From the NCBI GenBank assembly GCA_003024985.2, contig PXIH01S0000335.1: a stretch of DNA of 25,928 bases; one strand, written 5' to 3'. The position numbers and the translations under genes were made by a program. The notes under the pieces were generated by a model. That model saw only the letters and a program-made list of their open reading frames with translations. It did no database searches and was not told the DNA's origin. Positions 1-25,785 of this stretch are shown piece after piece. This stretch comes from Euperipatoides rowelli. Its lineage: Eukaryota > Onychophora > Udeonychophora > Euonychophora > Peripatopsidae. Within the stretch, counting starts at the first letter, position 1. Every line of letters starts with the position of its first letter.

Positions 1-370
1 TTATCATTCACCTTCCTCAAGCGAGTAAGGATGTAGCCCCGCCTACAAGTACCCGCCAGAGCAGCCTCTGGGGTACAACTCAGATGACCACACGTCAACT
101 CATAAAGATTCAGCAACCAAGCATCACTGACTCTATATGAGACACTATTCGCATGGCCATGTAAGATGATTGTAAGTGATCCATTACCGCAGTCCCACAA
201 TCACAAACACACGACATACAACACTTATTCTGGGAGCACCATTCTGCAACAGCAGGGAGCTCCCCCTCTGCTGGTGTCCCCCAAACTCGGAGAGCACCAG
301 TAGGAACGCTGAGCATCAGCTAAAATATTGGTACCACGACCCTCCTTAGTACTAAGGAGCAGCCACCATT
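1..370 (-). other. LINE A 3' UTR (partial)
   Basis: This non-coding stretch follows the ORF2 stop at 371. A block at about 95-160 is clearly similar to 15165-15230 in fragment D: both contain GATTCAGCAACCAAGCATCA. This links D to the A-type 3' UTR. No poly(A) signal or TTAGGG tract is visible before the window edge. Confidence 0.6.
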
Positions 371-1652
371 TCAGTTCAACATCCTCAAAGTCCGAATATA
401 GTATAGGAACAGGGCTCGCATCCAAAGTTCTGGTCTGCTCGTATCTTTAAGATTGTTGTTTACAGCAGCACTGAAAATGCGATAGCTCGTATACATGTAT
501 ATTAACAATACTGCCATCCTCAGAGTTGACAGTAACATCTTGTTCCTCCGTGGATCGTCCCCCCCAATGTTCAGGGGCTACTCCAGAATAGTCCTCTCCA
601 AAAATCGTTTCTCACGCCAAAGCACCCCTGAGTATATGCAGTCTTCAAAGACATGCGTCCACTGCGGGGATACCACATGGCAGACCGGACAATTGTCATG
701 GTTGGTAAGTCCCATTTTAAAATTCCTCCTAGGGGTATTAATTCTGTTGTGGTATATCCGCCAGGCGACATCAGACCACTTACCCGGGAGCATTGTATTC
801 CACAGTTTCCCCCATGGGGGTTAGTGTTATATACAGTACATGACTTAGGGAGAATGTTCTCTCGGGTCATTATTCTTAGGAAATTCTTATACACTTGGGC
901 TGGGCTAAACAGCACCAATGCTTGCACTTTGTCAAACTCCAATGGTTTCGCACTGTTCAGGAGCGTGGGAAGACCACACTCTCCATACTCAATATCTTCT
1001 GGCTCCACTGCATTAATCTCAAGGAGAGAATATCTGGCGCCCATCCAGTCCAGTATCTGGGTGGCAAATTCCCCTACATTTTTTGGCATGCAATCCGTGG
1101 TAATAACATTCCAAATTGGGTAGTTATTTCTATGGGCACCCCAATTGGGGAAATTAACCCCCGCTTCATCTAGGAGTCGATTATGATAGGCGGGTAGGTT
1201 CAACAACATTCCCAGGGTGGCCACCTCCGGGACCACTCTTGCAAGATCAAGAGCGCCCCATAGTTCTTTATATTCATTTGGAAAAGAGCCCTGTGTGAAG
1301 CTCCTTGCAGTGGTAAAAAACAGTTCTGTTCCTCCATATGGCGGGCCCGAGTTCTTCAGCATTGCACACATGACGCTTGCTTCGAGTGTGTAAGAATTCG
1401 CCAGGCAAGGCCGTTTGAACCTGGACACCCGGCAAGCCTGCAGTCTGACTTGGACATCCAGGAAGTCAAGCCCCCCATGCACCAGAGGGAGAACAAGTGT
1501 CTGCTTACCTACCCACCTTCTCCTATTTTCCCCCAGAAAGCATTGACCATGATCTGGTTGATCTTACATTTTTCAAGGCTGGTGGGAGATATGGTGTGGA
1601 GTATAAATATCACTTTAGACATCAAGTATGCTTTGATTACAGTTACCCTATC

Positions 1653-2879
1653 TTAATATGATAGGCGAAACAGCACCCCAGCAAGTCTTTGTGCGGTGGC
1701 CGACATGTCCTTTAACAAAGCTAGATAGCTTGATTGCTCGGCTTTATAACCCCCAAAAGTCACTCCAAGGGATTTGAATCCAATGGTGCTTACCCCTTGA
1801 TTACTCGATTGAAGCACCCTTGTCATCGTTTCAGGTAAGTTCGCCACAAATATCTGTGTTTTCGTGATATTCAGTGATGCCCCTGAGTATGCCTCGAAGC
1901 GTCTGAAAATTTCATACACTTGAGGCAGGGCATCAGCTGAGGAAAGAAACAGGGTTAAATCATCGGCATAAATCGAGACTGGGGCAGGGAGATCCCCGAT
2001 GCAGAAGGCCTGGGAACGAAGCTCCACCTTCAACATCCGTAACAGCGGCTCAATGAAAAAGGAATATAACACCCCCGAGCTAGGATCTCCCTGTTTCACT
2101 CCACACTCGATTTTCACCCTCCGGGATAGGTGTCCATTTACCGCCAGGTCAGTGGCTGATCCTTTGTACAGGAGCTGAATGAGCTTACGCGAAGCATCAT
2201 TAAGCTCCAATGCTTCAAACACTGCATCGAGGAAGTCGTGCAACGCTGAGTCAAAAGCCTTGGCCTGGTCAAGCGATGCCACCAGGAGGGGCTTCTTGCA
2301 TTTATTGGCAAACCATATTATATCCCTGGTGGCAATCAGGTTGCCAAGCATACACTGGCCTTTGATGGTGTATGCTTGCTCGACCGAGACCATGCCCTCA
2401 GCCAGCCATGACAGCATCACCGCCATTATTCGTGAGAAGATTTTATAGTCTCCATTCAACATTGTGATGGGGCGCCAGGCATCAAAGCACCCCAGATCAC
2501 TTTTCTTAGGGATGAACACCGTGTAGGCCTCTTTGAATGACGGTGAGAGCTCAAAAGATGTAAAAATTCCAGCAATAACTTCATGCAGTATATCTATTAT
2601 TTCGGCAAGGAACGCTTTGTAAAATTCATTAGTAAGCCCATCCAACCCAGGCGCTTTTCCATTTTTCAGCCCTTTAATTATATCTGAGATTTCAGTCTTG
2701 GATGGGATGGCAGCAAGTGCCATACTATCCCCATGATCAGCTTTCTGCATAAGATTAGGATGTTCGAGATGCCTGGCCCCATAATGGACTTGGGGTAATG
2801 TAGCATTGTCATGTGGTTTGTTATGGCCTCCCTTATTGCTCCATCTTCTTGATACACATTTCCATTGACTTCGATTCAT
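1653..2879 (-). CDS. LINE A reverse transcriptase segment (open, 408 codons)
   Basis: This is the best-preserved piece of A's ORF2. Visible RT landmarks are GKAPGLDGLTNEFYKAF (residues 75-90), FIPKKSDLG with WRPITMLN (122-142), motif A in LDQAKAFD (Asp at 204), GVKQGDPSSGVLYSFFIEPL (260-279), and the catalytic YADD box (304-307, bases 1970-1959). Thumb-side sequence includes FKSLGVTFGG. All three expected catalytic aspartates are present, so the polymerase core looks intact here. The first roughly 45 residues do not resemble LINE C and probably include out-of-frame sequence from the damaged linker, so the listed start is only the first ATG of the open frame. It is a fragment of a dead ORF2. 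Confidence 0.85.
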   Translation of the reverse strand: MNRSQWKCVSRRWSNKGGHNKPHDNATLPQVHYGARHLEHPNLMQKADHGDSMALAAIPSKTEISDIIKGLKNGKAPGLDGLTNEFYKAFLAEIIDILHEVIAGIFTSFELSPSFKEAYTVFIPKKSDLGCFDAWRPITMLNGDYKIFSRIMAVMLSWLAEGMVSVEQAYTIKGQCMLGNLIATRDIIWFANKCKKPLLVASLDQAKAFDSALHDFLDAVFEALELNDASRKLIQLLYKGSATDLAVNGHLSRRVKIECGVKQGDPSSGVLYSFFIEPLLRMLKVELRSQAFCIGDLPAPVSIYADDLTLFLSSADALPQVYEIFRRFEAYSGASLNITKTQIFVANLPETMTRVLQSSNQGVSTIGFKSLGVTFGGYKAEQSSYLALLKDMSATAQRLAGVLFRLSY

Positions 2880-3320
2880 GTCATCCTGGCTGCCTGTCGA
2901 GGCCTCGCCTGGGTTCTAACTCCAGCCCAAAAGTTTTTACCCGGCCNCGTTAGGCCGTGGCCGATTACCATGCTATCAACAAAGGGATCTTTGGGCTGAG
3001 CCTGCGCTGTTGACTAGCCTTCCGAGGTCTTTGCTTAATAAGTGGCTCGGGTCATTAATGAAGTCGGTTTTATCCAGCAGCTTACTTGTCATCGGCGCTC
3101 TAGGCCTGTGCATTCCATATTACCGAAGCACATTGCGTATCATATCGGGTATTGTTTGCTTTAGTCGTTCCCACTTGACAGCTGGCGGGAGGACATTTTC
3201 ACTCAAAAATTGCGTTATTAGGGCTGCTTGTCTGTTCCTAACCAGTTCATTTTCAAAGGCGCCATCTGGACACTTCCAGATTATTCTTCCAGGCTTCTTA
3301 CTCAGGTCACCTACCAGTAT

Positions 3321-3985
3321 TCACGCACATACTGCCAGGTGGTCAGACGCAGGTAATCTCGTAAGGGCAATGTCCTTACAGGTGATGTGACTGGGGTCAC
3401 TTGTGACAAAGATTTTATCTAGGCACCCTCCTCCCCTCATGAATGTGGGACCCGGTTTATTGTCCATGTGAGAAATCCAGATATTTTGCATGTTGGCATC
3501 AACCAGTGCGTCTTTTAGGTATGTACTCATCTCAACCGATTGATCCCTATTGAAGTCTCCGGCCATTAGAGTCACGGGGGTGTCCACTGACTTCAAGAAG
3601 CGGGCCAGCTTTATTGCCAGGGCAGCCCTGGTTAGCCTTGGTTTAGAGGATAAGTAAACCGATACCAAAGTTACGAGGATACCGTTAATCTCAATTTTGA
3701 CAGCCATCAAGTTTCCATCAATGCAGTTTACTCTTGAACAACAAGTAGAGGGGTGTTAAGCAGCCTTGATTTGTTCAGTATAATTGCGGTCCCCAGCGTT
3801 TGTTTGGGCCAGTATTGGAAAGGAAGACTTCCCATTTCTCTGAATTCAGAATGATTTTTTTCAGTCTTCACTTCCTGTAGGAATCCAATATCTACTTTTA
3901 GATTATCAAGTTGTTGGTATAAGCCACACTGTCTCTCGAGTGTAGCGAGTCCGGCAGTGTTAATAGTTAATATTTTTAGTTCCAT
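3321..3985 (-). pseudogene. LINE A apurinic-type endonuclease domain, one frameshift
   Basis: This is the N-terminal nuclease of ORF2 in the exonuclease-endonuclease-phosphatase fold. Visible catalytic motifs are the N of TINTAGL, the E of FLQEVKT, the D and N of MAGDFNRD, and a closing ASDH. A T-F-M-R...LDKI block sits between the last two, as expected for LINE AP-endonucleases. A frameshift near 3715-3728 separates the first 85 codons from the rest: LINE C reads ISDGNLMVVKINVN through the same point. In LINEs this domain nicks the target site; here it would be the candidate for telomeric-repeat specificity, which is inference only. Confidence 0.8.
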
Positions 3986-4041
3986 TGTGGGATTAATTAG
4001 GCTATGAGGAAAGTTAGTTCTTGACTATTTCATAGTAATAT

Positions 4042-4072
4042 CGCCTGTGTTTTGCAATAAGGGCGCAAGGCA
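4042..4072 (+). repeat. Left terminal inverted repeat of the Sola-like element
   Basis: This 31-bp end pairs with 7686-7656 on the other strand with two mismatches (positions 6 and 25). The shared core is TGTTTTGCAATAAGGGCG. An ATAT copy lies just outside at 4038-4041. Confidence 0.85.
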
Positions 4073-4623
4073 CAAATGATTTATTGTTCGGGAGGGCCAC
4101 AACAAAGAATTTTTCACCATGTAATTGCTTACTGGGTAAGCACCCTTGGGAGTAAAGTTTTAATTTTTAGGTATATTTCTAGGTGTTTGATGCTTAAATC
4201 ATGGCTTTTAAAAATTTGACTTGCTGACATTCCATGACCTTGAAAATGTTACTTATGCCCTTATTACCGATCATTAATAATTTGAACTGTTACTTACGCC
4301 CTTGTAAACATCTCATGAAATATTCATTTTATCAATAATATTGATCACTAAATGCAATAATATTGATCACTAAATGCTCATTAGGGACAATAAAGCAGAG
4401 ATGACATTTTTTTGTTTATTAACTGTAATTGACAGGTTTAACTTACATTTTTGCGAAGGTTGAATAACACAAAATAATAATTGGGAAGATACAAGAATAA
4501 GTAAAAATTTCTGCTTTAGACACTTTTTTGCTAATTGGAAATCAATTAATAAAACACTTTCAAAAAAGTGGAAAAAAAGCTTACTACTGAATACACATTT
4601 TAGATTGTTTGCAATATTAACTT
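4073..4623. repeat. Left subterminal region with TIR-core motifs and a 22-bp tandem duplication
   Basis: No gene is seen here. It lies between the left TIR and the transposase stop. Two inverted copies of the TIR core occur at 4251-4266 (ACTTATGCCCTTATTA) and 4292-4305 (ACTTACGCCCTTGT). A perfect 22-bp tandem duplication occupies 4333-4354 and 4355-4376 and contains CAATAATATTG. Subterminal motif copies are common transposase-binding sites in DNA transposons; that role here is inference. Confidence 0.6.
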
Positions 4624-5760
4624 TTAAACAGAACTATAATTGTTCAAGTTCATCACTGAGATTGTCATGTCTGTTTCATGTAGACAATCACGGGTTTGTT
4701 TAGAATGAGGAAGATTCTTGTACTCTTCATGGTATTGTAAGGGGATTGTAAATTTCTTGCATAATTTTTGTAAATCTTTATATTTTTGTTCAGAAATACA
4801 AATTTGACTGTTGTAAGCTTTGGAAGGCGCTATGTCTCTTATTCTTCTCTTCTTCACGATTATAGTTTCCATTGTTTTTTCATCATCATACCAGAAATTC
4901 ACCAGTTCATTTTCTGCTTCAAATATCACACCACGTATTTGAGACCATTTGATTCGATTTCCTTTATTGTCCGTGGCTGTTAATGGAAAAAATTTGTCTT
5001 GAGTAGAGCTCCAATTGATGATGTCATTGTAATTTAGTTTTTGAACGTTGGGAGGTTTGGCTGGTTCTTTAATGGCTAGAGGTATTACTAATGGCCAACA
5101 GGATGGAGCATAAATCGTTCGATTCCTTATAAACCCTTCTATAGCACTGTGAATGGTATCTGCTCCCATGTATGAATGTCCACTGACTAAAAACTTTAAA
5201 GTTAGTTTTCTCACATTTAGGATCGATTGAAATGTGTGAAACAACATACTAAAAACCGCTCTGTTCTTGTTTTGACCTGCACAATTGTCACAGTACAGAA
5301 TAAGGTCAAAATCACCAGTTCTTTCAGAGGAAATTGATTCTATCCAAAGTCTCACTGCTGTGGCAATTTCATTACACCCTTTTTTACCATCCAATTCACC
5401 CCAAACATAACAGTAACCAGTATTTGTACTGCTGTTGTACACTGTTAGATTGTAAAATGCATACTTCCTTGTGTAATAAAATAGGGCATTTTTTGAATGA
5501 GGAGTAGAGAGTACCTTTTGAAGATCAAAACTTGCAACCACTAATGAGGAATCTGTTTTTGCTTTCTGAATGTCTTCACCATATTCAGCAATAGTACTTT
5601 TCTTTAACTTGTGTTTGTACTGCAGTTTTTCTTGTGGAGCAATTACACCAGCTTTTCTTTTGTTCTTCATTTCAGTGCAGAAAATACACTTGTCTTTTTT
5701 TGGTTTGTGGAAACAAGTTGAAAGTGCGGAATTCTTTCTTGAACACTTGAATTTCAGCAA
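4624..5760 (-). CDS. Transposase catalytic segment (open, 378 codons)
   Basis: This holds the catalytic part of the Sola-like transposase. It opens with a Cys/His cluster (CFHKPKKDKCIFC, residues 16-28). Candidate DDE residues of an RNase H-like fold are Asp79 in VVASFDLQ, Asp158 in LILYCDNCAGQNKNR, and Glu208 in HSYMGADTIHSAIEG. A DNC-G-QNKNR motif followed by H...D..H..IE is a signature I associate with a widespread uncharacterised insect and invertebrate protein family thought to derive from such transposases; the exact family name is from memory. The true protein starts far upstream, so ATG 5760 is only the first Met after the frameshift. Confidence 0.7.
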   Translation of the reverse strand: MLKFKCSRKNSALSTCFHKPKKDKCIFCTEMKNKRKAGVIAPQEKLQYKHKLKKSTIAEYGEDIQKAKTDSSLVVASFDLQKVLSTPHSKNALFYYTRKYAFYNLTVYNSSTNTGYCYVWGELDGKKGCNEIATAVRLWIESISSERTGDFDLILYCDNCAGQNKNRAVFSMLFHTFQSILNVRKLTLKFLVSGHSYMGADTIHSAIEGFIRNRTIYAPSCWPLVIPLAIKEPAKPPNVQKLNYNDIINWSSTQDKFFPLTATDNKGNRIKWSQIRGVIFEAENELVNFWYDDEKTMETIIVKKRRIRDIAPSKAYNSQICISEQKYKDLQKLCKKFTIPLQYHEEYKNLPHSKQTRDCLHETDMTISVMNLNNYSSV

Positions 5761-6910
5761 ACTTTTTTCCTTCTTCCTTCATTTGCTTTTTGTAGTCATC
5801 GAAAATAATCCTTCTGTTCAGACGTGATGGTAAGTACTTCTTTTGTGAATTTTTTCTTGTGTAGTGGGAGGGAACTGCAGGCAATCCCTTGATAAAGGTT
5901 CGTACTCCTTCAATAATATCATCTTTCGTTTTATTTATCTTTTGACAATGGCCTCTGTCATCTTCCTTGGCTGTGTTCATTTGGGTTGCATGTGAAAGAG
6001 TGTATCAAATTTTTTTCTCAGAATCTGCTAACGTTGCCATAAAAATTTTTCTACACACTTCAGTTGACTGACCATTAATCTCCAAATTGTAATGATAAAT
6101 TACATTTCTCTTTTCCTTGTTTATAGTTGTGGACTTCCTTCTTTTAACATCTGCTTTTGTTATATGAGAGCAAATCCAGTCTCTTTGCTGCTGATCACTA
6201 AGTGGATAAAAAGCCGAAAAGACTGCTTGTCGTTCTTCGTCAAGTATGTTCTTGCAATTAAGTGTGCATTTTGTACAAGGGTTTGGTTTTAAAGCTTTTC
6301 CAGGCACAAAGCGCTCTTTTGCATTTTTGTATGGTAGACCAGACTGTTTATCTAACTTTCTTTGCACTCTCTTGTTAACAAATTTAACTTTTTTCGGAGC
6401 ATCACCAACTACTTGTTCGAGATCCGAATCGACACTGTCAGATTCATTTGAAACCATAACGGGTGCTGTCTTTTTCCTTTTTCTAGGCGATTTTGCACTT
6501 GCCTTCTTTACTCTCTTTGTTCTTTCCTCTTGAAGAGGTTCATCATCTTCTGAAGAACTACTATTGCTGTTAGAAGGGTGGTAATTGTCGCTGGAACCAT
6601 TAGAAGAGATAGTTTCTGAATCAGTTTCTTCATCTGAACCTGAAGGTTCCGCAGCTGCGAGATTCACTTGATCTCCTTGAATTTGAGACGTACTGCTAGC
6701 AGAAGGCACACTGGAATGAACTGAATGAATGTTTTGGTTGCTGTCAGGTATATTTAGAGTCATAGAGTTATCAGGCTCCGCATAATTTATTACTGTGTGT
6801 TTTGTTGGTGGTGGGTGCTGTGATGATTCTTGATTGATGACTTGTGGAGATTTGGGATTGTCTACAGATGTAGCATTTCCATGTGAATCTTCAATTGGTT
6901 GATACGCAAC

Positions 6911-7004
6911 CTACAATGAGGATAGTTTTTATTAGTACTTGAATAATAGGCTATTTACTCTAATAATTAAAATATTAAAATAATTATAATAACTACAAAT
7001 TTAC
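6911..7004 (-). other. Candidate 94-bp intron in the transposase gene
   Basis: On the minus strand the exon ends CCACAG, followed by gtaaattt; the intron is AT-rich and ends cattgtag before GTTGCGTATCAACC. Removing it joins EVPQ to VAYQPIED in phase 0 and keeps the frame open to the 6005 stop. Without splicing, a stop follows EVPQVNL at once. Confidence 0.65.
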
Positions 7005-7395
7005 CTGTGGCACCTCTGTAGCATCGTCAACTTCTTGCCTTTCTATTCTAGCCAATTCTGCAGATGCATCTGTTTTACAAGTGCAAATAGCTTTTGCCAC
7101 AGCACCCCATTCTTTGTTTTTGTACCGTACATTTAAAGCACTTTCCACTTTGATATCACCACCTAAAACTTCTGATCCTTTTACAACATCAAGACTGTTT
7201 GTATCATTCCATTCTATGACTAGCCATAGATCATCTCTACAAAAAATACCAGTTTTTGTTCTATTCATGATGGCAACTGATTTGAATGACACGTTTTCAC
7301 TGTTTGGGGCTCTCAATTGACCTAAAAAGAGAGGATAATGAAATTAGAAAGTTATCAACACAGCACAAAAGTACCCAGAAAATTCCAGCATCACT

Positions 7396-7527
7396 ATAGG
7401 TGTTGTGCAATAAGGGCGCAAGTAGCTACTTACGCCCTTCTTTCATATAGTTTTTCCTGTAAAAAATTTATGTGAATGGTAATAAGGGCTCAAGTGGCTC
7501 CTTAAGCCCTTAATGCACAACACCTAT
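7396..7527. repeat. 132-bp inverted-repeat block inside the Sola-like element
   Basis: Perfect 14-bp arms (ATAGGTGTTGTGCA at 7396-7409 and its complement at 7514-7527) enclose two palindromes, 7409-7439 and 7481-7514, each built from the TIR core AATAAGGGC. The outer part resembles the parent TIR (GTGTTGTGCAATAAGGGCGC against GTGTTTTGCAATAAGGGCGC). It may be a small non-autonomous relative inserted near the end, or a subterminal binding array. No clear target duplication is visible. Confidence 0.6.
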
Positions 7528-7655
7528 GGATAGTACCTGTGCCTTAAGCCCCACTCAACTCTCTCATTAATAGAGATACACTTACACCCTTATTACATAT
7601 TATAAAATATTGCTTCCTGGCTACATATGCACTTAACACAAATTTGAAAAATATA

Positions 7656-7686
7656 TGCCTTACGCCCTTATTGCAAAACAGAGGCG
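7656..7686 (-). repeat. Right terminal inverted repeat of the Sola-like element
   Basis: This is the partner of 4042-4072. Read on the minus strand from 7686 it begins CGCCTCTGTTTTGC. An ATAT copy lies just outside at 7687-7690. Confidence 0.85.
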
Positions 7687-7763
7687 ATATATACTAGGGG
7701 TATCTCCGAGGTAAGCAAAGTAAGTCTCAACTGAGAGAATCAAATCACAGGTCTTATTTCCGT

Positions 7764-10122
7764 GGCATTTTGCCACTTACTCGCTCCTTATACTTGTTTG
7801 CCGACGCCTACAAAGCCGGCGACAAGTAATCAGACATCGATGGTGTATTTCTTTTGCTGGGGCCTTTCACCTCTCGTGCCTTTTTTGCGTGAGCTTCGGC
7901 AGCCTCCCCTATGAAGTCCTCAATCAAATCATATTTTCTATTTGATTTTAAAAAAAGCTCTATGCTTATTGAAGGACCTCAAGGCGTCTTCAACATCAAG
8001 CCGCTCCAAGATCGTATCAGGGTATTTACCTTTTTTTTCTTTGTGGCTGTTTGCTTCAAGAAACGTAGATGCCACAGAAAACGTTATCTGGCTTGTCAGC
8101 CGGAGTTTTCTGTTTCTTCACGCACTTTGGCCCACTTAGAGCCTTTCTGTTTCCAGAGGGGAGCGGGACAATACGTCTCAGAATCATCCGCCTCTTTTCC
8201 AGCAGCTTTTTGGCGAAGTGTACTCGCCCCTCACCCGCTGTATCAGTGCGTACATCATACTTATAATCGCGTGCAGGACTCAATGTTGGACGTTGACTCA
8301 ACCCCATACTGCTTCCACCCACCCCTACAAACACTGGGGCCTTAGCGTCATGCGCAGCTGGGCCCGCCGTGGCCATCTTGGCAGCAAGTGCCCATTTCTT
8401 GGCCCACCCTCTGTTAGGGTCAAACACTGGATTAGTATACAGTCTCCAGGCTGCAGTTTCATCTTTGGGAAATCTATCCTGTTTCCCGCCTTTCTCCACT
8501 AAATTGATGTCAGTCCCATCACGTGCATTCCGGCAATTTCGACGAAAGTGGCCAGTTTGACCGCAGCCGAAACACCGCGGCAAGTCCGACATCACTGTAG
8601 CTTCAAACGATTTCCCCGCAAAGTCAATCAGGACCGTCTCAGGTAGTGTGGTTTCCTTCGACATCCTTATGAAAATTTTTCTTCAGCAGGACTTAATATG
8701 TTTAAGGCCCCTATCAGAAGAGGGTGCAAAAATGAATTTGCAGTCATCGGGTGTGCAGGTCCCCCATGACTTCAGGGCCCTACACACCGATGAGTGCGGA
8801 ATAATGGTCGGGACGTTGGTCAACGTTACCAGTACCGGCTTTTCTGAGAGACAATACACTTTGAACCACGTCCCTCCTACGTCAAGTCCAGTTTCGACAA
8901 TGTGGTCTACTGCACCAGGATCACTTAGTGTTATTTCCATGCGGGCGCGGTCGTCACCATTAAATGCCACGATGTTCTTCCCTACGACCACGCCCGCGGC
9001 AGCAAGGTAATCATTCAGGGTAAACCCGTAGGACCCAGAATGTGGACTGGAGATATTTTTCCAATTCCACGGATTCCACTCTAAGGCTTTCTCTGTCAGC
9101 ATCGGATAGGATTATCCCAATTAACGGATCCTCATCACTTGACGAACTGGGTACCACCTCGTGGTATTTCCATCTTTGCAGGCTCAGCCACTAAGCTTTG
9201 CACTTCACATATCCTCTTCTCTCCTAATTTATCTTGCAGCAGCTTTGCCTCATCCCCAATGATGACTTCTGACAGGTGTTCCTGTCATCCATAGCCCGGG
9301 GGGAATCAGGNACACTATCGACCCTGCCACTTTGGCTTTTAGCCTAGGGCAGGAGGGTGGAGCCTCTCATCAAGATTTCTTCGAGTTACCCATACTCAGC
9401 ATTCCCGCTGCCATGCTTTTTGCTTTTGGGTTCCACTGGATTCCTAGCGTAGGCTAGCACCAGGCGCCGATTCAGTTTCGCCATGGTCCTTCTAGACCTT
9501 TGAGTAATTCTAGAAGGAGGGGTGTAAATCACGTCTTTCCTCAAGGAAAGCGGGGGTGAAGCAGTGCTGGAGGGTGAGGAGGTAGTAGTTTCCTCTTCCG
9601 ATTCGACAGTTTCAGTTACATCGACCCAGATAGATATAATCGCCGCCCCTTCCAAACCTTCCTTATTTGTTGGCATCTGTATATCTAGGTCCATAGGTAC
9701 AGTTCCTGACTCAAATGTCATTCCAAGTTGGAGATCGTCATCTGAGCAGTCCGTACTATTGTATTCCACCAACCCAGGTTTGCAGGCAATTTGTGTGTCT
9801 ACTATTGACGTCACGCCCCCGACCATTGACTCCTGGGATTCCTTCATCCTCTGGCCGGGGGAATTTCTGATTCACTCGATGCATTTGACATTGACTCACC
9901 TTCTACCTGATCGCATGCATGATGAGACTGCCCATTCGCCGACTTAGCAGTCTCATCCTCACCGCTGTTTAATTCTATGGCACAGTGTTCAATGCCTTCA
10001 ATAGCCATGATCGTGCCCACTTGGGGGCCGGAAATCAGACCAAGGGGGTCCGAAGTGTCCATACCTTCATCGTCTAACCCCTCAGTATCATTGTTGGGTG
10101 CTGGATTGCAACTAGTCTCCAT
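7764..10122 (-). pseudogene. LINE A ORF1: gag-like RNA-binding protein, broken
   Basis: ORF1 begins at ATG 10122 and can be traced to TAA at 7766-7764 by comparison with LINE C (about 750-790 codons). Order: an acidic Ser/Asp/Glu-rich N-terminus; a basic patch (SRITQRSRRTMAKLNRR) near 9480; a compact domain at 9102-8683 with VAFNGDDRARMEITLSDPGA and VLVTLTNVP; a CCHC knuckle CFGCGQTGHFRRNC; then a low-complexity tail ending with ILERLDVEDALRSFNKHRAF and KYDLIEDFIGEAAE. Breaks: frameshift at 9847-9844, a damaged interval 9385-9103 (N at 9311), TGA at 8683, frameshift near 8060, TAG after NKHRAFFKIK, and TAG at 7810. Such proteins coat LINE RNA in ribonucleoprotein particles. Confidence 0.8.
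8056..8664 (-). CDS. LINE A ORF1 zinc-knuckle segment (open, 202 codons)
   Basis: This open piece carries VLIDFAGKSFEATV followed by CFGCGQTGHFRRNC, a C-x2-C-x4-H-x4-C nucleic-acid-binding knuckle. LINE C has the same pair (MIDFAGQSFEARV, CFACGKSGHIRRNC). The in-frame TGA at 8683 just upstream replaces an arginine codon present in C, so translation from the true ORF1 start could not reach this point. Confidence 0.75.
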   Translation of the reverse strand: MSKETTLPETVLIDFAGKSFEATVMSDLPRCFGCGQTGHFRRNCRNARDGTDINLVEKGGKQDRFPKDETAAWRLYTNPVFDPNRGWAKKWALAAKMATAGPAAHDAKAPVFVGVGGSSMGLSQRPTLSPARDYKYDVRTDTAGEGRVHFAKKLLEKRRMILRRIVPLPSGNRKALSGPKCVKKQKTPADKPDNVFCGIYVS

Positions 10123-14030: not shown

Positions 14031-14037
14031 GCTTACA

Positions 14038-14050: not shown

Positions 14051-14200
14051 AAGAAAGAAAAGTCCTCCTGCCTCCTTTCACGGATATACTCCCACCTTGG
14101 TAGAGGGGTGGAAGTACTGGGCCCCACGAAGAAGAGTGTAAGGAATCACAGTTTTTTATTGACAGTACAAGAGTAAGCCGAAAGAAGGGACCACTGAAGA
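14051..14200 (-). repeat. Shared 3'-terminal LINE module (copy in D)
   Basis: Conserved blocks, read on the plus strand: TCCTCCTGCCTCC, a CCACC-N10-GGTGG hairpin, CTGGGCCCC, GTGTAAGGAATC and TTTTTTATTGACAGT. On the element strand the last block is a poly(A) signal, CAATAAAAAA. The module lies directly upstream of the CCCTAA tail. Related copies are at 15439-15560 and 22169-22320. Confidence 0.7.
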
Positions 14201-15438: not shown

Positions 15439-15560
15439 CAGAAAGGCAAATCCTCCTGCCTCGACTCTTGGGATACTACCACCTAGGAGGGGTGGCAGCA
15501 CTGGGCCCCAAAATTAGAGTACAGGGAATCAAGTCATTATGTTCACAGTTTTCAAGAATA
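15439..15560 (-). repeat. Shared 3'-terminal LINE module (copy in C)
   Basis: Carries TCCTCCTGCCTCG, the CCACC...GGTGG hairpin and CACTGGGCCCC in the same order as D. The AATAAA signal seen in D and E is replaced by a non-matching sequence near 15540, consistent with decay. Confidence 0.65.
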
Positions 15561-15863
15561 TACTGGAGCAGAAGGGTCAGCCTGGATGCAGAGGTTGACA
15601 GCCCCATCATTTTGCAAACATACAAAGCTCTCTGGTGACTACTGCTTGTTATCTCTCAGAGTCTGTAGGTAATACATGAATAAAGCACACATCCACAGTT
15701 CTGGCTTAGCTGTCTTTTTTAAATTGTCCATCGTTGCAGCATTGAATAATCGATAACACGTGTACACATACAGCATAAACACTGCAACCTTGAGGGTAGT
15801 CAATTTCTTAAGAATTTTCCTATTGAGGGCACTCTTCTCTACTGGTAGTAGATTAGCCGCTGC

Positions 15864-17174: not shown

Positions 17175-17523
17175 TGAACACCTTGATCGCCTGTGACAGT
17201 GCTACTGACGATGTTAAATACAATGTAATGTCGTCAGTATAAATTGATACTGGAATTTTTAGGTTGCCAATACAGAATGCATTCGGTTTGAGCCTTTCTT
17301 TTAGTCTTCTAAGGAGAGGTTCAATAAAAAATGAGTAGAGCACCCCGAAGCTGGGGTCGCCCTGCTTGACTCCACGATTAATTGCAACCTTCTTGGACAG
17401 TGCTCCATTTACCGTAAAGTGGGTAGCCGAACCTTTATATAACAGTTGGATAAGCCTCCTGGCTTCCTGACTAACCCCAAGTGCCTCAGACCCTGTCAAG
17501 GAAGCAGTGTGACACTGAATCAA
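17065..17523 (-). pseudogene. LINE C RT catalytic segment with a YTDD active site
   Basis: The frame carries RLIQLLYKGSATHFTVNG, then GVKQGDPSFGVLYSFFIEPL (residues 51-70) and IYTDDITLYL, where the usual YADD box reads YTDD (residues 95-98, bases 17241-17230). ACT in place of GCT is a one-base change. Both catalytic aspartates are kept. Residues before about 18 and after about 120 are out-of-frame sequence beyond frameshifts. Confidence 0.75.
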
Positions 17524-18199
17524 AGGCCTTTGCCTTGTCTAATGAGGTCATCAGGAGAGGCTTATATTTGTTAGCAAACCACAAAATGTCCCTTGTCGCT
17601 GACACGTTACCGAGCATACACCTCCCTTTTATGGAGTATGCTTGTTCCACAGATATAATCCCCTCTGCCAGTCTGGATAACCTGTCAGCCATAATTCTGG
17701 AATATAGCTTATAATCAGTGTTCAACATTGTTATAGGACGCCAGGAGTCAATAGCACCAAGATCACCCTTTTTGGGGATCAGAATTGTATATGCCTCCCT
17801 GAATGATGCAGGCAGCTCCCCTGAGATAAATATACTGACAATTACCTCATACAGGGTGTCAATAATATTGGGAAGAAAAGCTTTATAAAACTCATTGGGA
17901 ATCCCGTCCAGGCCAGGGGCCTTGCCATTTTTCATGGCCTGAATAATTTCAATTATTTCCTGCTTGGTTGGTAGACTAACAAGCGCCTCGTTATCGACAT
18001 GATTAACCCGAGACAGGAGACCATGAAGCTCCCCTCCATCAGGCATTCCACACATCCATTCACTATGCAATGATGACATGTGTTGCCCAATTGCCTCCCA
18101 GAGTTCTTTATCGCCTGAGAAAATCTTCCCATTTACTTCAATTGTCTTCATCACGTTACATTGCCTTGACTTGGCTGTCCTATTTATTTTGCTCCACAT
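17486..18199 (-). CDS. LINE C RT N-terminal segment (open, 237 codons)
   Basis: Contains NGKAPGLDGIPNEFYKAFLP, ILIPKKGDLGAIDSWRPITM, SRIMADRLSRLAEGIISVEQ, and motif A as TSLDKAKAFDSVSHCFL, all in the same order as LINE A. A frameshift just after motif A moves the remaining RT to another frame. Confidence 0.8.
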   Translation of the reverse strand: MWSKINRTAKSRQCNVMKTIEVNGKIFSGDKELWEAIGQHMSSLHSEWMCGMPDGGELHGLLSRVNHVDNEALVSLPTKQEIIEIIQAMKNGKAPGLDGIPNEFYKAFLPNIIDTLYEVIVSIFISGELPASFREAYTILIPKKGDLGAIDSWRPITMLNTDYKLYSRIMADRLSRLAEGIISVEQAYSIKGRCMLGNVSATRDILWFANKYKPLLMTSLDKAKAFDSVSHCFLDRV

Positions 18200-18437
18200 G
18201 CTCTTGTTCAGGTATGCTAATAGCGTGCCCCATTGTGAAACTGGTCATTAATTCCGAGTTAGGAGTAATTTGAGCACTGTTTATGACATCCTCAAGCTCT
18301 TTTTGAACCATTCCTGATGGGTTTTCCATAAACTCCATTTTATCCAGCTTCTTCATTGCCTCTCCTACCTTACCACGCCCACACCTAAATTGTCGTGCCA
18401 CTTTAGTTATATCTGGGATAGTCTGCTTAAATTTTTC

Positions 18438-19154
18438 CTATTTCACTACCGGCGGCTCTTGTGAGCCACCAAGATATTGAGATATTAGTGCTGCAATTCG
18501 ATTACAGGTTTTCAGGTCATTAAGGACATTGCTAGGGCACCTCCAACTCATTGACCCTTTATTTGTTGTATGTTCTCCAATAAGGATTGTCACCTCCACA
18601 TCCCGATGGTCTGACTGTGGCCAATCTACAAGCTGTATGTATTTGCTAGATGCAACATTTGGGACCACAGTAATATACATTTTGTCAAGCCGACTCAAAC
18701 TTCTGGTAAACGTAGGACCAGGCATATCGCCCTTATGAAGAATCCAAATGTCACTGAAATTTGTACTGACAAATGCATTATCAAGATAAGTTGTCATACT
18801 TTGTGACAGGTCTTTATTGAAGTCACCAGCCATTACTATTACAGGACTATCTACTGATTTTAGAAACCAAGCTAGTTTAACCGACATTGCAGTCCTCACC
18901 AGCTGGGGTTTTGGGGGTAAGTACACCGATATTAAAGTGACTTCCACGTTATTTACATTGATCTTAACCACCATCAAATTTCCATCACTAATGTCAAAGT
19001 TTAAACATTGTGTGGGAGAAATTGGGATTTTCTTATTATTTACCAAAATCCCAGTCCCCCAACGCCCATTTTTGCCAGTGGAGGAGAGAAAGACGTACCA
19101 CTTATCAGAAATTATTCCAATATTGTTCGTCTTCACCTCCTGCAGTAAGGCCAA
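18438..19154 (-). CDS. LINE C apurinic-type endonuclease segment (open, 238 codons)
   Basis: Shows LLQEVKTN (catalytic Glu), WGTGILVNN, VTLISVYLPP, VMAGDFNKD (Asp and Asn), GPTFTR...LDKMYIT and the closing PQSDH. These are the expected AP-endonuclease motifs in order. The first 30 or so residues lie in another frame upstream (ORF2 start 19250). It is better preserved than the same domain in LINE A and useful for modelling target specificity. Confidence 0.8.
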   Translation of the reverse strand: MALLQEVKTNNIGIISDKWYVFLSSTGKNGRWGTGILVNNKKIPISPTQCLNFDISDGNLMVVKINVNNVEVTLISVYLPPKPQLVRTAMSVKLAWFLKSVDSPVIVMAGDFNKDLSQSMTTYLDNAFVSTNFSDIWILHKGDMPGPTFTRSLSRLDKMYITVVPNVASSKYIQLVDWPQSDHRDVEVTILIGEHTTNKGSMSWRCPSNVLNDLKTCNRIAALISQYLGGSQEPPVVK

Positions 19155-19364
19155 TGTCTATAGAGCGCAAATTAACTCATGAAACAAACTACACTGTCTA
19201 TACAGTGTAGCAATTCCTGCGGTGTTTATTGATATAGTTTTTAATTCCATGTTGTGGTGTGATTCCAAATGGGGTTACCATTTAGCAGCTCTTTTTAAGT
19301 CAGAGTACCATGCACCAATTTGGTGAAGTGCCGGTGAATGTTGCTGTGTTCAAATATAAAATCT

Positions 19365-21617
19365 TTATAATTTCACCATTTTCACACTCAACCTCTCCTT
19401 ATGCTTATTTGCCGCTGTTGAGGAAACGGATGACAGATCATCCGACATCGATGGCACATCTCTTTTTTTAATTATCATTTTTTCCTTCAACCTCTTGGCT
19501 TGTACCTCAGCTGCCTCTCCAATAAATTCCTCAATGAGGTCATACTTGGTATTCAAAGTTTAAAAAGCCCTATGTTTATTGTAGGACTTTATTGCATCAT
19601 CCACATTCAATTTCTCCAGTATGGGCACCGGGTAATCACCCTTCTTCTCTTTATAACTTTGCGCTTCTAGAAAAGTAGATGCAACTTGGAAAAAATTATC
19701 TGGATGCTCTACCTTTGCTTTTCCTGAAGTACTCCCACCAAACTTACTTTGCCCAACTGTGCTATGCACAGGCTTAATCTTACTCTTTTCAAAACCAGTA
19801 TTTACCCTTGAGCTCTCTGGGGAGGGTGGAAGGTGACTGCTCTTAGCATTATTTGTGGTTCGGTCCATTGTTGGGCCAGGCACCTGTACACTGCCCATGT
19901 TCAGTGTGTCATCCCTATCCCATGACTCAGGAGGTACGTTTACCCCCCTCCTGCCCTTTAGGGTCTCTGCCCAGGGGACTGGGGTCAATCGTAGTGTTTG
20001 GCCAGAGAGCAAGGTGCTGGGAAATGGGGCAGGGTTACTGACTCCTCTCCAGGCCTCCACCTTATCAGCTTGTGGAGCTGAAGATTTTCCCCCATATTCC
20101 ACACTATTTGCAGTATACTCTTGTGTGCTACAGCAATTCCGTCGGATATGACCTGACTTGCCACATGCAAAGCATCTCTGCAGAAAAGTCAAAACCCTTG
20201 CTTCAAATGATTGACCTGCAAAATCAATCATTATTACTTCTGGTACTATTGTTTCCTTTGCCATTCTTACAAACGCTTTCCTCCGGCAAGATTTAATATG
20301 CTTTAAGCTACGGTCGTGGAAGGAGCAAATATATATTTGCAATCATCTGGTGTGCAGCTCCCAAGAAGTTTCAGAGCTTTACACACCGTAGAATGCGGGA
20401 TTAATGCCGGGATGTTGGTCAAAGTGATCAGCACTGGCTTTTCAGAGAGTCAGTAGGCTTTGAAACAAGACCCATCCACGTCCAGCCCAAGATCCACTAT
20501 CCGGTCCACTGCAGTTGGGTCCTTCAATGTAATCTCCACACGGGTACGGTCATCACCGTTGAATGCAACTATGTTGTCCTTCCCGACCACTTTGCCAGTA
20601 GCCGCCAAGTAACTATCAAATGAATAACCAAATGATCTAGATACCCAAAAAGTTGACTGCAGGTATCTCTCCAGTTCAACCGATTCCAATTTAATCCTAT
20701 CTCACTCCTCTTCATCAATCATCTCTTCAATATCAGGACCTGTGTCCTGGGTAGGAGTACTCTCCATGGGAAAAATTTCACCTTCATCTGGGTTAGTTTC
20801 ACGCTTGCCCTCATCACATGAGGGAGCAGGTTGCAGGAAGACCTTGGTTTGTTCCATTTGAAAACCAGCTGATAATAGTTCAGCCTTCACCTCTTTCCTC
20901 ATTTCTGTACCTTTGCTTGAAGAGGTGGCAAATGTTCTGATCTCTGCCAGCGGCTCACGAACCATGTTCCATCTATCCCACAGCTTTTTAGCTCTCACAG
21001 GAGATTGTTTGGCATATGCTGCCGTCAGCCTACGATTCAGCTTTGCCACCACTCGTCTTGACCTTCTAGTTATCCTAGATTCAGGGGTGTTGATCAAGTC
21101 CTTCCATGAAGACAAAGGGGGTGAGTCTGAGCTCAGCCCTGAAGAGAATGACGTCTCCTCCTCAGTTTCGATAATTTCCACTTTCGTCCAACTCATTTCT
21201 GTCTTAGTAGAGTCCAGTGTACTCAGTGGCTCATTTTCAGGCTGCAATTGACTCATCTGAGTGCAGCTAAGCAGTTTGGCTACTCCACCGCTCTGCAAAT
21301 GGTCATCATCTGAGGAGTCAGAGACCATATGAGACCAGCGTTGTCATTGGTGTGGAAATATCCTCAATCTTGCTATTATCCTCAGGAGAGGCCTGGGGTT
21401 GTTGCCCAGCAGGTATAAGTGAGTCCTCCAAATCGGAGCATCTGGGTTTATCATCCAGTTGGCTATCTTCAGGCTTCAGTTCATCTTTACTCAGATCATC
21501 CACCACCATTATGTCAGCAACTGGGTCAATTTCCATTCCCTCTGAACTATCCATACCGGCTGAGGCCACGGGCTCATCTGCCCGGGTTGCCCCCTTTATG
21601 TCAATATCCTCCACCAC
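19365..21617 (-). pseudogene. LINE C ORF1: gag-like RNA-binding protein, broken
   Basis: ORF1 runs from ATG 21617 to TAA at 19365, about 750 codons, parallel to LINE A. Order: acidic N-terminus; Ser/Glu-rich stretch and basic patch (SRITRRSRRVVAKLNRR) at 21328-20702; compact domain with NIVAFNGDDRTRVEITLKDP; knuckle CFACGKSGHIRRNC at about 20180; a Pro/Ser-rich tail; and a conserved end, ILEKLNVDDAIKSYNKHRAF followed by KYDLIEEFIGEAAE. Breaks: frameshift near 21320, stop at 20702, TGA at 20450, a stop and frameshift near 20320, and TAA at 19560. Cytoplasmic RNA coating and particle assembly is the family role. Confidence 0.8.
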
Positions 21618-22036
21618 CTCTGGTAACTCCTATCAATCCATCCTTTGGCACTACACAATTTGCAGCCATCTTTATACAACAGCTCCAAACTCTGATAATA
21701 CCACTTTTTACTTAATAACGTTTTAACCAGACTAGCAAAAAATCCAATTTTTTGGCTGTGGGTCGCGGGCCCCAATAGTTGAAGTCCACCCAATTTTCAA
21801 ACAAATCCAGCCAGGCGTTTTCAAGAAATCGCAATTCCTATTTACAACACTTTAGGGTATGGGTAACTCGCTGATGAATATTTAGCGACTCCTTCTGAGT
21901 TAAGATCCGAAAATTTGACAGCTGGTGTATAATCTTGTAGGTAATTCCCTACCCAAAAGGCAACTTTTTCCAAGTGGTTTTCCGGCAAAAGATCAAAAAC
22001 CAACTGCAGTAGCCTATTTTTTCAAATCTAACACAT
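21618..22036 (-). promoter_or_regulatory. LINE C 5' UTR
   Basis: A 420-bp leader without coding potential, ending at the telomere-type array. Two blocks related to LINE A's leader repeats occur at 21801-21826 (ACAAATCCAGCCAGGCGTTTTC) and, weaker, at about 21965-21985, spaced about 160 bp. This suggests tandem leader monomers, as in some L1 promoters; that role is inferred. Confidence 0.5.
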
Positions 22037-22166: not shown

Positions 22167-22168
22167 GG

Positions 22169-22320
22169 TGTAGTTCATCCTACCTCCGCATTGGGTATAC
22201 GACCACCTTGGAAGAGGGGTGGCACGTATTGGGCGCCCAATGTAAAGTGTAAGGAATCGAAAACTTTTTATTGATAGTTCAAGACAAAGTGAAAGATGAA
22301 GGGTCCTACAGATAGGTATC
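22169..22320 (-). repeat. Shared 3'-terminal LINE module (copy in E)
   Basis: Contains CCACCTTGGAAGAGGGGTGG (hairpin), TATTGGGCGCCC, GTGTAAGGAATCG and, on the element strand, the poly(A) signal TCAATAAAAAG. It matches D most closely. Confidence 0.7.
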
Positions 22321-24949
22321 TATAGAACGAAAGAAGACATATGATAGATCTATGACGCCAAAATGCCGACAGCCCGCCCATAATCTCCAGGTCATTCAGA
22401 GAAAGGAAACCGCACTGAAACGAGGTAGGCCAACCCAGGTCTGCTCCAGCCAAGGGCCCCGAATGCGCCTGGCAGTAAGGTAGGGTGCACCGAAGCACAT
22501 CCATAGCCGATGCCCCCCCCCCCCACACACACAGACCAAGGCCACAAAGGATACACCATACAGATACCAATCCGTTTAATCAGTGCAGTCTCCCCACACC
22601 AACAGACCCGGAAAACAGGTTAGGCCGTTCCGCACCATGGTGTCTTAATTACTTTTAAAATAACGATGTACTTCTAGAATCTAATTTAAATAAAACAAAA
22701 TATTAATTTCCCTAATAAAACAAATTAAATATCAATATGTGGATGTCAATGTAATTCGAAAGGTCCCTCAATCACTCTTTGGCACCCTCCAAAGAACGAC
22801 TGAGGATGGGAAAGGGTGGGATACAAGTTCCACTATGTAAGAGTAAATTACTACTCCTACACAGGAGCCAAATTTAGTGATTCCCGGTTAAACTTGCCGG
22901 AGGCAGACCGAGAAACCACATCCAGCTCAAAGGATCAGGAGGTGGGGGACTCTCAGTGTGAGTTGTACAAAAGACAAAGTCGATTGTTACACCAGAAAAA
23001 CACCGTGACAGTGATCATAGGCAGGGGTCTAATCCTTATTAAGCAAGTGCACCCAAGACCACTGCTGAGAGGGGGGTGGGAGGAAGTGACTGGAGATGGA
23101 GTATGGAATTAGGATTAATGAGATGAGTTCAAAAGTAACAAAAAAACCAACAATAACACACGTAGACAGATTACACATTGCAAAACACAGGTAGTCAAAA
23201 TTCACATAATACAAAACAAATATGACTACTAATGTGCACCTATTACATTCATAACGAAACACGAACACTCATTTCAAAAAATCCCACATTAAGGTCAGGG
23301 GCGGGGGAGGCCGAAGCCAGTACGAGGTGGGCCAACCCAGCCAGGAACTGCATGTGGCCCCATCGCGGCATGCAGCCAATGAATGCAACTCCGCTCATCC
23401 ACAGCATTGCACCCATTACCCAGCTGGGTACACGAGGATCACCCTTAGAATTTAATCATTTTACCAGGTCCGACATCCCTCGCCCCAGACACCCATTGGG
23501 ATAACATTCATCTCGTTACACTTTTGATGGCATTTAATCTCGAAGTTTGGATCCAAAAATTGTTAGAACCTCTCCCAATTCTAAATTAGGAGTCACAAGT
23601 TGACCATCGTTCATCCTTGCCACAGTGACAACCAGTACATAGGAGCTGTCACCATGACAAGTATCACAATTCGAGCCAATACTGGAAGCGGCAATGATCA
23701 AATCATGATCAGGACATTATCTGAACAATAATGATAAAGCAATTCGATTGTTTCTCATTCACTTCCCAAGTTCTCTCCTCAGGCAACCGTAGCTGCTTGC
23801 AATCCAATCTTTGCATCAAACTCTGGATCAAGGCAAGACTAACACAGATCGTTCCAATTTCGCATGAAGGGCCCTATCAAGTACTCGATCACCTACCTTA
23901 AAAGATTTCCATTCCAAGTTCTCCCATCAGGGCAATGATCCCAGATAGGAAACCCGATAATCGTATAACCGAATCATTGTAGACGGCTACGCAGGCAGAT
24001 CTACCTACTCATGTGTCACAGGTAATTCCAACATAGCACTAATGATGAGATGGGGAGGGCCATTTCCACCCGTCCCACTAGGCCCATGCCACCAAAATAC
24101 AACAGTGTAAATTGGGGGATATATTTGTTACGTAGATACCTGGACTCCTTCGATTTCATCAAAACAATCAATGATCTCAAGCGTTGATGAGCCCCANNAT
24201 GAATGTGAACTACACTAGTCATCAAGCCCACAGACCTCTTCCTACATAATTCAGACAATTGATCGGCAAAAACAAACATTTCTGCCACAACAAAGGAAGA
24301 ACCCACTCACAGGCCCTGTTGCCAACTGGACTCATCCCTGGGACATTCATTGGAACCATGAATATCAAACACAAGGAAAAATAGTTTCACTGCAGCTATT
24401 AACTCGATGCCCGAAGTCGACCGCCTCTATGGGATCCAGTTACTCAACGAAGAGCAGATATTACATAAAGAAGACACAAACACAAACTTTCACACTGCAA
24501 CCAGTTACTTTTGGCCTAATCATGCTCAATATATATATCATCATAATAATATGTTTAAAAAAAATGGGGGGGGGGCATGCACAGTAGAAAGGGGAGGGTC
24601 CCCGCATGCACAGTAGATTCTGGTACCCCCTTTTGTAACACCCCCATCAGATCTCAACATTCTAAATCTGATACATCAATGATAATGAGCTGTGACAATC
24701 GGAAGTTGTCAACCAATCAAAATAACACAAAAAACCTCTATTTATCTCGGGATTAATTTAAGGTAAGAACAACAATTACACCACCAACCAACAAAAAAAA
24801 AAGGGGGGGGGGGGGGGCATGCACAGTAGACAGGGGAGGATCCCACACATGTGCAATAGATTCTGGTACCCCCCTTTGAAACACCCCCATCAGATCTCAA
24901 CATTTGTGACCTGATTGGTTAATCTTTTTAGAATCCGACCAAGGGGAAT
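22321..24949 (-). other. LINE E 3' region, no gene recognised
   Basis: A 2.6-kb stretch without recognisable coding sequence. It has a C-run at 22515-22524, a weakly duplicated block (ACGAGGT-GGCCAACCCAG at 22420-22438 and 23322-23340, with similar sequence for about 70 bp after each), poly-G runs, an NN at 24197, and a 95-bp direct repeat (24566-24660 and 24803-24903). Confidence 0.5.
24566..24903. repeat. 95-bp direct repeat pair in LINE E 3' region
   Basis: Copies at 24566-24660 and 24803-24903, about 240 bp apart. Each starts with a G-run, then GCATGCACAGTAGA, and ends ACACCCCCATCAGATCTCAA. Copy 1 repeats GCATGCACAGTAGA internally; copy 2 has a decayed second version. Confidence 0.75.
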
Positions 24950-25785
24950 CTATGCCTGTGGTCCATGCTTCTTTTGCTGACTATATCGCAGGGCATCAAT
25001 GTAAAACCCAAAAACCACAGCGTACCATAGTTCTGGTTTTTTCAGTTTAATTTTTTCTGAGTTGCGGAATTAAATATCTTATAGCAAGTATAGAGATAAA
25101 GGAAAGAAGCTGCTCTTTCAATCCATTTGATTTTTTTCCGGCAACCAGTAGGTAGCGCAGTGACCGGATCATCCACCATTGAGCTCAATTTCTCTATGCT
25201 TTTCCTTCTCTCAATTTCAAGGGCCGCTGTGTAATGACAATTATTGAAAATATGAAAGTCATCATTGTCGGCACTATCACACAACAAGCACAGGGGTGTC
25301 TCCTGAAGCTTCATTAGCCAATTTCTCCTTGACGATGCCAGCCTATTGTGCATAGCTCGCCAAGCAACATCAGACCACTTAGCAGGGATCAAATTATTCC
25401 AAATGGATCCCCATTGAAATTTCAAATTACCTATCGATTTAGGGATATTGACGGGCATATTGGAACATTTAATACTCATTACTATGAATCTGCCTGGCTG
25501 TGTAATATGAAAGTGACCTTTTATCCTGAAATCTAGTTATTGAGGCTTTAATAATTTCATTTGGAATAGTCCTATTTAGGGTTTTATTAGTATCTCTTGA
25601 GATGGCATTGATTTCCCCATGAGCAAATCTGGCCCCCAGCCAGTCAGATACCTGTGTGGCAACGGCCTCCACTCCTTTCAATCGACATTGAGAGGCAAGA
25701 ATTTCACGCACCGAGAAATCAACTCTACTCGATTTCCAATTAGGGAATATAACTTTCCCTCTAGAAAACACCCTGTTGCAGGGTT
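24950..25785 (-). pseudogene. LINE E ORF2 C-terminal part, broken
   Basis: Two open pieces (25771-25469 and 25479-25042) plus a short tail to TAG at 24952-24950. Features: GKVIFPNWKSSRVDFSVREI, SDWLGARFAHGEIN, then IPAKWSDVAWRAMHNRL and a knuckle CLLCDSADNDDFHIFNNC (C-x2-C...H-x4-C), and finally KKPELWYAVVFGFYIDALR. These line up with A and C in order. Frameshifts lie near 25475 and 25045. It lacks the RT core because of 5' truncation. Confidence 0.75.

Follow-up and report, generated by a model that had tools for sequence, protein, structure and literature searches.

How did several long interspersed nuclear elements (LINEs) come to lie head to tail with telomere-type repeats at every boundary between them? 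The question is raised by the right-hand 25,928 bases of scaffold C150 (69,387 bases) of the onychophoran Euperipatoides rowelli, which were analysed as a whole and are called the window here; the assembly comprises 100.9 Mb in 4,324 contigs, and coordinates without a contig name are window positions. Tandem Repeats Finder (TRF) and a telomere-unit scan located a TTAGGG-type tract at each of the four boundaries between the LINE units A, B, D, C and E: three perfect repeats between the 5' end of A and the 3' end of B (11213-11230), two repeats between B and D (14039-14051), a degenerate series of TTAGGG, CCAGGG, TTCGGG and TTAGGG between D and C (15407-15438) and about 21 units, including the variants TTTGGG, TTAGTG and others, between C and E (22037-22168). 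The G-rich strand is the plus strand in all four. The LINE coding pieces in A, B, C and E (reverse transcriptase, apurinic/apyrimidinic (AP)-type endonuclease, zf-RVT and a CCHC-containing ORF1) are on the minus strand and, therefore, the tract reads CCCTAA in the LINE sense and stands directly after the 3' end of the element. Each tract is 3' of one LINE unit and 5' of the start, full or truncated, of the next.

The pattern TTAGGGTTAGGG, with up to two mismatches, was found 28 times in the window compared to a mean of 2.48 and a maximum of 7 in shuffled sequences, which rules out a chance origin of the tracts. Within the tracts lie 24 of the 28 matches; three others are on the plus strand (10306, 21852 and 23289) and one is on the minus strand (11921). 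A first-pass annotation of this DNA had described a head-to-tail LINE array with TTAGGG-type repeats of one polarity at all internal boundaries and had judged them to be beyond chance. This description holds, with the refinement that the LINEs are on the minus strand, that the CCCTAA tract comes after the upstream element's 3' end and that A is interrupted. From the evidence given below we consider it very likely that an L1-group LINE family inserts site-specifically and repeatedly into TTAGGG/CCCTAA repeats and thereby builds arrays, probably at chromosome ends.

Telomeric repeats at the 3' and 5' junctions

The last 100 or so bases at the 3' end of the window units C, D and E recur in copies on other contigs. 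The assembly was scanned for this end with the motif AATAAA N{2,9} ATTCCYTRYA, which is free of telomere letters, and 66 matches were obtained versus 14 for the reversed control. Forty of the 66 were examined, 39 by reading and one (L060) by the covariance model alone, which gave no match; 23 belonged to the family and 17 did not. At least two telomere units within 40 bases were present at 18 of the 23 family ends, one unit at three and none at two. Applied to randomly chosen positions of these loci, the test was positive in 0.65%; this value exceeds the true background, as tracts had partly guided the choice of loci. The first-pass annotation had named, as the contrary outcome, copies elsewhere that mostly end in poly(A) or another tail and have random flanks; the 23 family ends do not show this outcome, and no poly(A) before the repeat was seen among the tabulated 3' ends. 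In an enlarged set of 33 ends, ten of them added via tracts or neighbours, 26 had at least two units, five had one and two had none.

Target and register can be read directly from these copies. Read by eye, 22 of the 23 ends found by the motif continue after the element with CC(C)T[A/T]A[C/T] and, therefore, the junction is in one register; indeed, CCTAACCC follows the 3' end on many contigs in this one register. A somewhat different end was seen at L086 (C943:34142), about 160 bases from a contig end, where the 3' end minus its last bases runs directly into CCCAAACCCAAACCCTAACCC, which looks as if copying had started within the 3' end.

Telomeric repeats were also found on the 5' side. Several copies begin with a potential hairpin sequence, e.g. 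GATTGGCTGA..TCAGCCTG, and an assembly scan with a pattern for this class of 5' end gave six matches and none for the control. Five of the six start at most 4 bases from a tract; in the sixth (C2280:21152) about 370 bases with tRNA-like repeats lie between the tract and the start. This latter stretch (L040, C2280:21150-21560), which extends from a TTAGGG unit to the LINE 5' end, contains by eye one tRNA-like stretch plus a tandem of three units, each about 90 bases long and also tRNA-like; ARAGORN called no tRNA here. Another class of 5' end, CTTCCTGTTTGGCTTCCAT with its variants, comes after a tract at five places, LINE A of the window among them. Taken over 35 examined junctions, the tract was followed by identifiable LINE sequence (a protein match or a 5'-end motif) in 20. 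One copy of 9.5 kb (L096, C2280:1830-11420) has a tract at either end and frames for an ORF1 of 764 amino acids, an endonuclease of 332 amino acids and a reverse transcriptase of 916 amino acids, the latter two in different reading frames. Across copies, both the 3' and the 5' junctions lie in telomeric repeats, as in LINEs aimed at such repeats.

An internal insertion and what it indicates

On contig C3576 a 5'-truncated LINE copy of about 438 bases lies within a dispersed repeat whose flanks are present on both sides, and here the internal insertion, one case, is directly visible. A related, LINE-free copy of the repeat on C735 reads ACAGTCCTAACCCTAACCCTAACTCCAACTA, with variants in C577, C647, C4189 and C4198; on C3576 the LINE is placed between CCCTAACCTTACCCTGAA and CCTAACTCAAACTATG, with the 3' register seen in the arrays. 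Since this LINE lies in a CCCTAACC stretch and unoccupied copies of the repeat exist, the telomere-like sequence was there earlier, and the repeat is a target and not merely a tail. Judged by sequence comparison, the CCTAACCCTAAC-type stretch is a built-in telomere-like site and the presumptive target of the LINE on C3576. The dispersed repeat itself is DNA-transposon-like and carries CCTAACCCTAAC-type sequence before [C/A]AACTA..TATTAA (C577, C647, C735, C4189 and C4198; L032, L035, L036/L037, L093 and L094).

This copy bears on the question whether the CCCTAA run could be the element's own 3' tail, comparable to the microsatellite tail of a LINE, with insertion sites otherwise random. The run does follow the 3' end in one register, as such a tail would, but five of the six scanned 5' ends also come after the repeat and CCCTAACC is present in the unoccupied relatives of the C3576 site; we, therefore, regard an own tail as very improbable. 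The C3576 insertion is also independent of bridging tracts, which matters if short reads had joined different LINE copies via TTAGGG repeats. Large N runs are indeed present in the scaffolds, and the tract on C207 runs into N, but most tracts read are shorter than 50 bases and in one register on many contigs, and the probability of an assembly artefact of this kind appears negligible to us.

Another possible origin of the chains is that one array was, for the most part, multiplied by segmental duplication or by break-induced copying, as in some MoTeR arrays. Passages of PMC7367193 describe break-induced replication in MoTeR arrays, where interstitial TTAGGG tracts are prone to break. In contrast, the neighbouring units examined here belong to different subfamilies, and their truncation points and tract sequences differ as well; one unit was, therefore, not simply copied along the array, which leaves a predominant role of duplication highly unlikely.

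Family, predicted 3' hairpin and known telomeric elements

To which LINE group does the family belong? Compared to PDB sequences, the reverse transcriptase matched LINE-1 ORF2p with an E-value of 9.4e-31, a chain labelled only RNA-directed DNA polymerase with 6.5e-31 and R2 with 1.5e-20; none of the ten matches of this search was R1 or Jockey. The endonuclease was nearest to LINE-1 as well (2.5e-05), and thus both domains are nearest to L1 among references that do not include R1 and Jockey. One of two CCHC Pfam matches was below the curated cut-off. The reverse transcriptase frame of L096 is 31% identical to its best database protein, from Xiphophorus, and in a tree of 71 reverse transcriptase sequences, which includes no named Tx1 reference, A, C and L096 formed a clade of their own outside the Xiphophorus group. 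The domain content is plain from the copies and, as classified from sequence, the family is a putative L1-group LINE with a CCHC ORF1 and an ORF2 with AP-type endonuclease, reverse transcriptase and zf-RVT. Membership in the CRE group of MoTeR and FoTeR does not fit the AP-type endonuclease matches (the L1 endonuclease in PDB; in Pfam below cut-off), and a HeT-A/TART-like element does not fit the internal insertion in a dispersed repeat and the lack of poly(A) before the repeats.

The 3' end was then analysed for RNA structure. Of the 33 3' ends 29 were aligned, four cut or weak ends being excluded. The stem was positioned by an ACC/GGT core in 22 sequences (type I), where six further pairs lie outside this core; of the 132 outer cells, 126 hold standard pairs, exchanged among CG, TA, TG, GT and AT with several pair types per position, and three of the six breaks belong to window unit E. 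In seven sequences (type II) a stem of other sequence is located around TCAGCTACCCA, with 39 of 42 cells paired at the best of four offsets. The stem was picked by eye from the same, related sequences; the covariance model R1 was built on the structure given by RNAalifold itself. The potential to form a hairpin is present in the aligned ends, and the RNA 3' end can, by prediction, form a covarying hairpin. In LINEs of the stringent type a stem-loop of the 3' tail is recognised by the element's own ORF2 protein, according to passages of PMC4176376. In the present family a covarying 3' stem-loop is predicted. The term "TX1" in the same passages denotes mutant proteins and was rejected as a reference to the Tx1 clade.

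In the mechanism that we favour, the endonuclease of the element would nick the G-rich strand within TTAGGG, and, after recognition of the hairpin at the 3' end of the RNA, this end would be copied from the nick by target-primed reverse transcription. Each insertion would leave TTAGGG on both sides, so that the next one could land beside it in the same orientation and chains could grow. The target arrays would be host telomeres or subtelomeres.

A different route would be attachment to chromosome ends as in HeT-A/TART and Athena. A CCCTAA tail of the RNA would anneal to the overhanging G-rich strand, the end would be lengthened by reverse transcription, and telomerase would supply TTAGGG units ahead of the next attachment, all without the need for an endonuclease. 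The polarity is right for this, the elements having their 5' ends directed towards the 3' end of the G strand, the tracts are short, truncated copies sit directly on tracts, and the array on C150 is bordered by ribosomal DNA (rDNA) on its 3' side and by the scaffold end on its 5' side. However, the C3576 copy is flanked on both sides inside a dispersed repeat and the endonuclease region is retained in A, C and L096. As the general explanation, both the attachment step and the telomerase step that would go with it are, therefore, improbable; as an additional route beside site-specific insertion, end attachment is possible.

Several observations weigh against site-specific insertion into telomeric repeats as the rule for this family. 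The examined set covers 40 of the 66 motif matches, and two of its 23 family 3' ends have no repeat (C1132 is decayed and C2727 has CACTAA-like variant repeats). Of the three ends with a single unit, one is the C3576 copy inside another repeat, one is cut by the contig end (C3038) and one has just this unit (C2280:21633). L050 (C89), counted as non-family, has no tract and matched the model weakly (24.7 bits, E 0.0098). Since motif and model were derived from tract-linked copies, divergent non-telomeric subfamilies could be missed. The sequence after the tract was not recognised as LINE at 15 of the 35 junctions, nine of which had fewer than 300 bases available. Further, the Pfam Exo_endo_phos matches of the endonuclease are below the curated cut-offs, contig C3709 holds family pieces in both orientations, and at the rDNA-side 3' junction of the array on C150, with N's nearby, no telomere repeats were found.

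Similar strategies are known from other LINEs. MoTeR and FoTeR carry a restriction-like endonuclease, TRAS and SART belong to the R1 clade, and HeT-A and TART form oriented chains near chromosome ends, to which they attach through a poly(A) tail. For MoTeR1 and MoTeR2 of Magnaporthe oryzae, passages of PMC7367193 describe head-to-tail elements with (TTAGGG)n spacers that range between half a unit and over 20 units and the variants TTTGGG and TTCGGG, i.e. the same array layout, including variant units, as found here. FoTeR of Fusarium oxysporum has TAACCC repeats after its 3' end and shares with our family the 3' runs of this repeat; in passages of PMC12857005 MoTeR and FoTeR are grouped with CRE, SLACS and CZAR. 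Unlike these elements, the E. rowelli family has an AP-type endonuclease, a separate ORF1 and a reverse transcriptase nearest to L1 among solved structures, and its chromosome-end position, established for MoTeR/FoTeR, is an inferred one. TRAS and SART of Bombyx and other insects insert into telomeric repeats, and the AP-type endonuclease of TRAS1 cuts these repeats in target-primed reverse transcription (passages of PMC7265360 and PMC2868851). The insertion strategy and the AP endonuclease of TRAS1 are thus alike, but the TRAS/SART target is TTAGG and SART1Bm requires a poly(A) tail, whereas the target here is TTAGGG and no poly(A) precedes the repeat. With HeT-A/TART and with Athena, a head-to-tail chain in passages of PMC2861651, the family has the oriented chains in common; there elements attach to ends, here insertion is internal and site-specific.

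A further precedent is Tx1-1_ACar of the green anole, a telomere-specific Tx1 LINE according to passages of PMC10088271, which cite Kojima and Jurka 2013 (Repbase Reports). The first-pass annotation knew of no well-described L1/Tx1-like element with TTAGGG; the view that none has been described is not supported in the light of this citation. As far as the description in PMC10088271 goes, it has in common with our family that a LINE would insert into telomeric repeats; arrays such as those found here are not mentioned in those passages. Tx1 elements of snails are mentioned in passages of PMC11203168, which do not speak of telomeres. Beyond the anole citation, literature searches, which mostly did not cover subscription journals, revealed no further recognisable TTAGGG array of L1/Tx1 elements.

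In sum, the insertion strategy is already known, and what is added is the LINE family, the array form in an L1-group element and the diversity of its subfamilies. Telomere-repeat targeting arose in separate LINE lineages, and many diverged L1-group subfamilies with one target, a fixed register and a covarying hairpin offer material on how endonucleases of the L1 type gain specificity for TTAGGG.

Contigs, chromosome position and units of the window

Reverse transcriptase of the family was found on at least 20 and ORF1 on at least 18 of the 4,324 contigs; these counts are lower bounds since 100 of 409 candidates were scored for reverse transcriptase and 59 of 86 for ORF1. Reverse transcriptase matches were kept from 165 bits upwards and, besides the query, were 36-66% identical. 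The weaker ones left out were mostly about 30% identical or less, with some at 37-61% (second pieces on kept contigs; C1132, C1912 and C46), and ORF1 matches ranked below C1138, including C46, were left out as well. The 14-mer TTAGGGTTAGGGTT occurs on 23 contigs, which include 12 of the reverse transcriptase and 12 of the ORF1 contigs (p = 1.9e-24 and 2.8e-25). On 16 of 17 contigs with at least two family features all were in a single orientation, features within one element not being independent. Some 14-mer tracts were rejected by eye as LINE junctions: a minisatellite (C523), isolated repeats (C1922, C4129 and C1885:6934) and ends of the dispersed repeat (C577, C647, C735, C4189 and C4198, with the similar-looking C630, C1946 and C852).

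TTAGGG, which is also the repeat of vertebrates, is assumed to be the host telomere repeat; TTAGG x4 is absent from the assembly. Exact TTAGGG x3 has 24 assembly matches, none of them within 3 kb of a contig end in these gapped scaffolds, and no assembled telomere was seen. Sampled scaffolds are largely N, as are six of seven places sampled on the sides of arrays in their entirety. The single polarity is not evidence for chromosome ends since an oriented target alone produces it. The telomerase family PF12009 had no match in the assembly, and also none in 14 control genomes, so that its absence is uninformative. The 3' side of the array on C150 (L097:1-1930, C150:7500-9430) holds the 5' part of 18S rRNA (Rfam match L097:1362-1857) together with rDNA spacer; beyond the broken-off 18S rRNA comes a LINE that has an internal deletion and, at its 5' end, a tract. 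This fragment fits an array on an rDNA-bearing chromosome end, but the junction may be an assembly join. Tentatively, and with the odds against it, one may consider that long chains of these LINEs together with telomerase-type repeats make functional chromosome ends, as a counterpart of MoTeR telomeres. If true, the enzyme that cuts the target would be supplied by the L1-group element itself, which may also repair broken ends, including those in rDNA. The arrays are a further case of LINE chains with interstitial telomere tracts, by which chromosome ends may be destabilised or capped.

Some sequence in the assembly looks bacterial by eye, i.e. an HscA-like HSP70 on C380 (L110) and a SecY-like stretch on C85 (L049), and is perhaps from a symbiont. 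HSP70 matches are located on C85, C380 and C425, of which the one on C380 was read; a search for COX1 gave no match.

All LINE units of the window are on the minus strand. LINE A (1..11212) has its 5' end at 11212, in the class common to four other places, and its 3' end beyond the window. Its ORF2 C-terminal part begins at 386, followed by the reverse transcriptase (1656-2974) and the endonuclease (3138-3985); ORF1 with a CCHC knuckle extends from 7956 to 9154 by homology and as an open frame to 9871. LINE B (11231..14038) is 5'-truncated, has ORF2 C-terminal fragments (12599-13773) and belongs to a different 3'-end subfamily. A second 3' end of the B type (C110:49207) also adjoins a tract, and partial matches on C1238 and C1912 stop short of the end. 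LINE D (14052..15406) consists of the 3' part alone, being 5'-truncated, and matches a LINE region at another place over 829 bases with 78.5% identity. LINE C (15439..22036), whose 5' limit is defined by the tract and not by a known 5' end, encodes reverse transcriptase and zf-RVT (15657-18211), the endonuclease (18411-19250) and ORF1 (19488-20686 by homology, with a further open frame to 21343). LINE E (22169..25792) comprises the 3' end and the ORF2 C-terminal part (24959-25792), with the scaffold end 136 bases beyond. The covariance model placed the 3'-end RNA domain, predicted to contain the hairpin, at 14066..14167 in D and 15454..15550 in C, and the domain of E, in which three of the six outer hairpin pairs are broken, at 22178..22279 (all minus strand).

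Another transposon interrupts LINE A, with an ORF for a DUF7869-type transposon protein (4624-5778, minus strand) and a further ORF (6005-6910, minus strand) in the interval that separates ORF1 from ORF2. Among its named relatives, those closest to the DUF7869 protein come from a stick insect (49% and 52%); the relatives labelled with an organism are from insects, most matches being unlabelled. At the scaffold end, after LINE E, TRF identified short tandem stretches (AAATGCTACT-like and with a 21-base unit) in 25793-25928.

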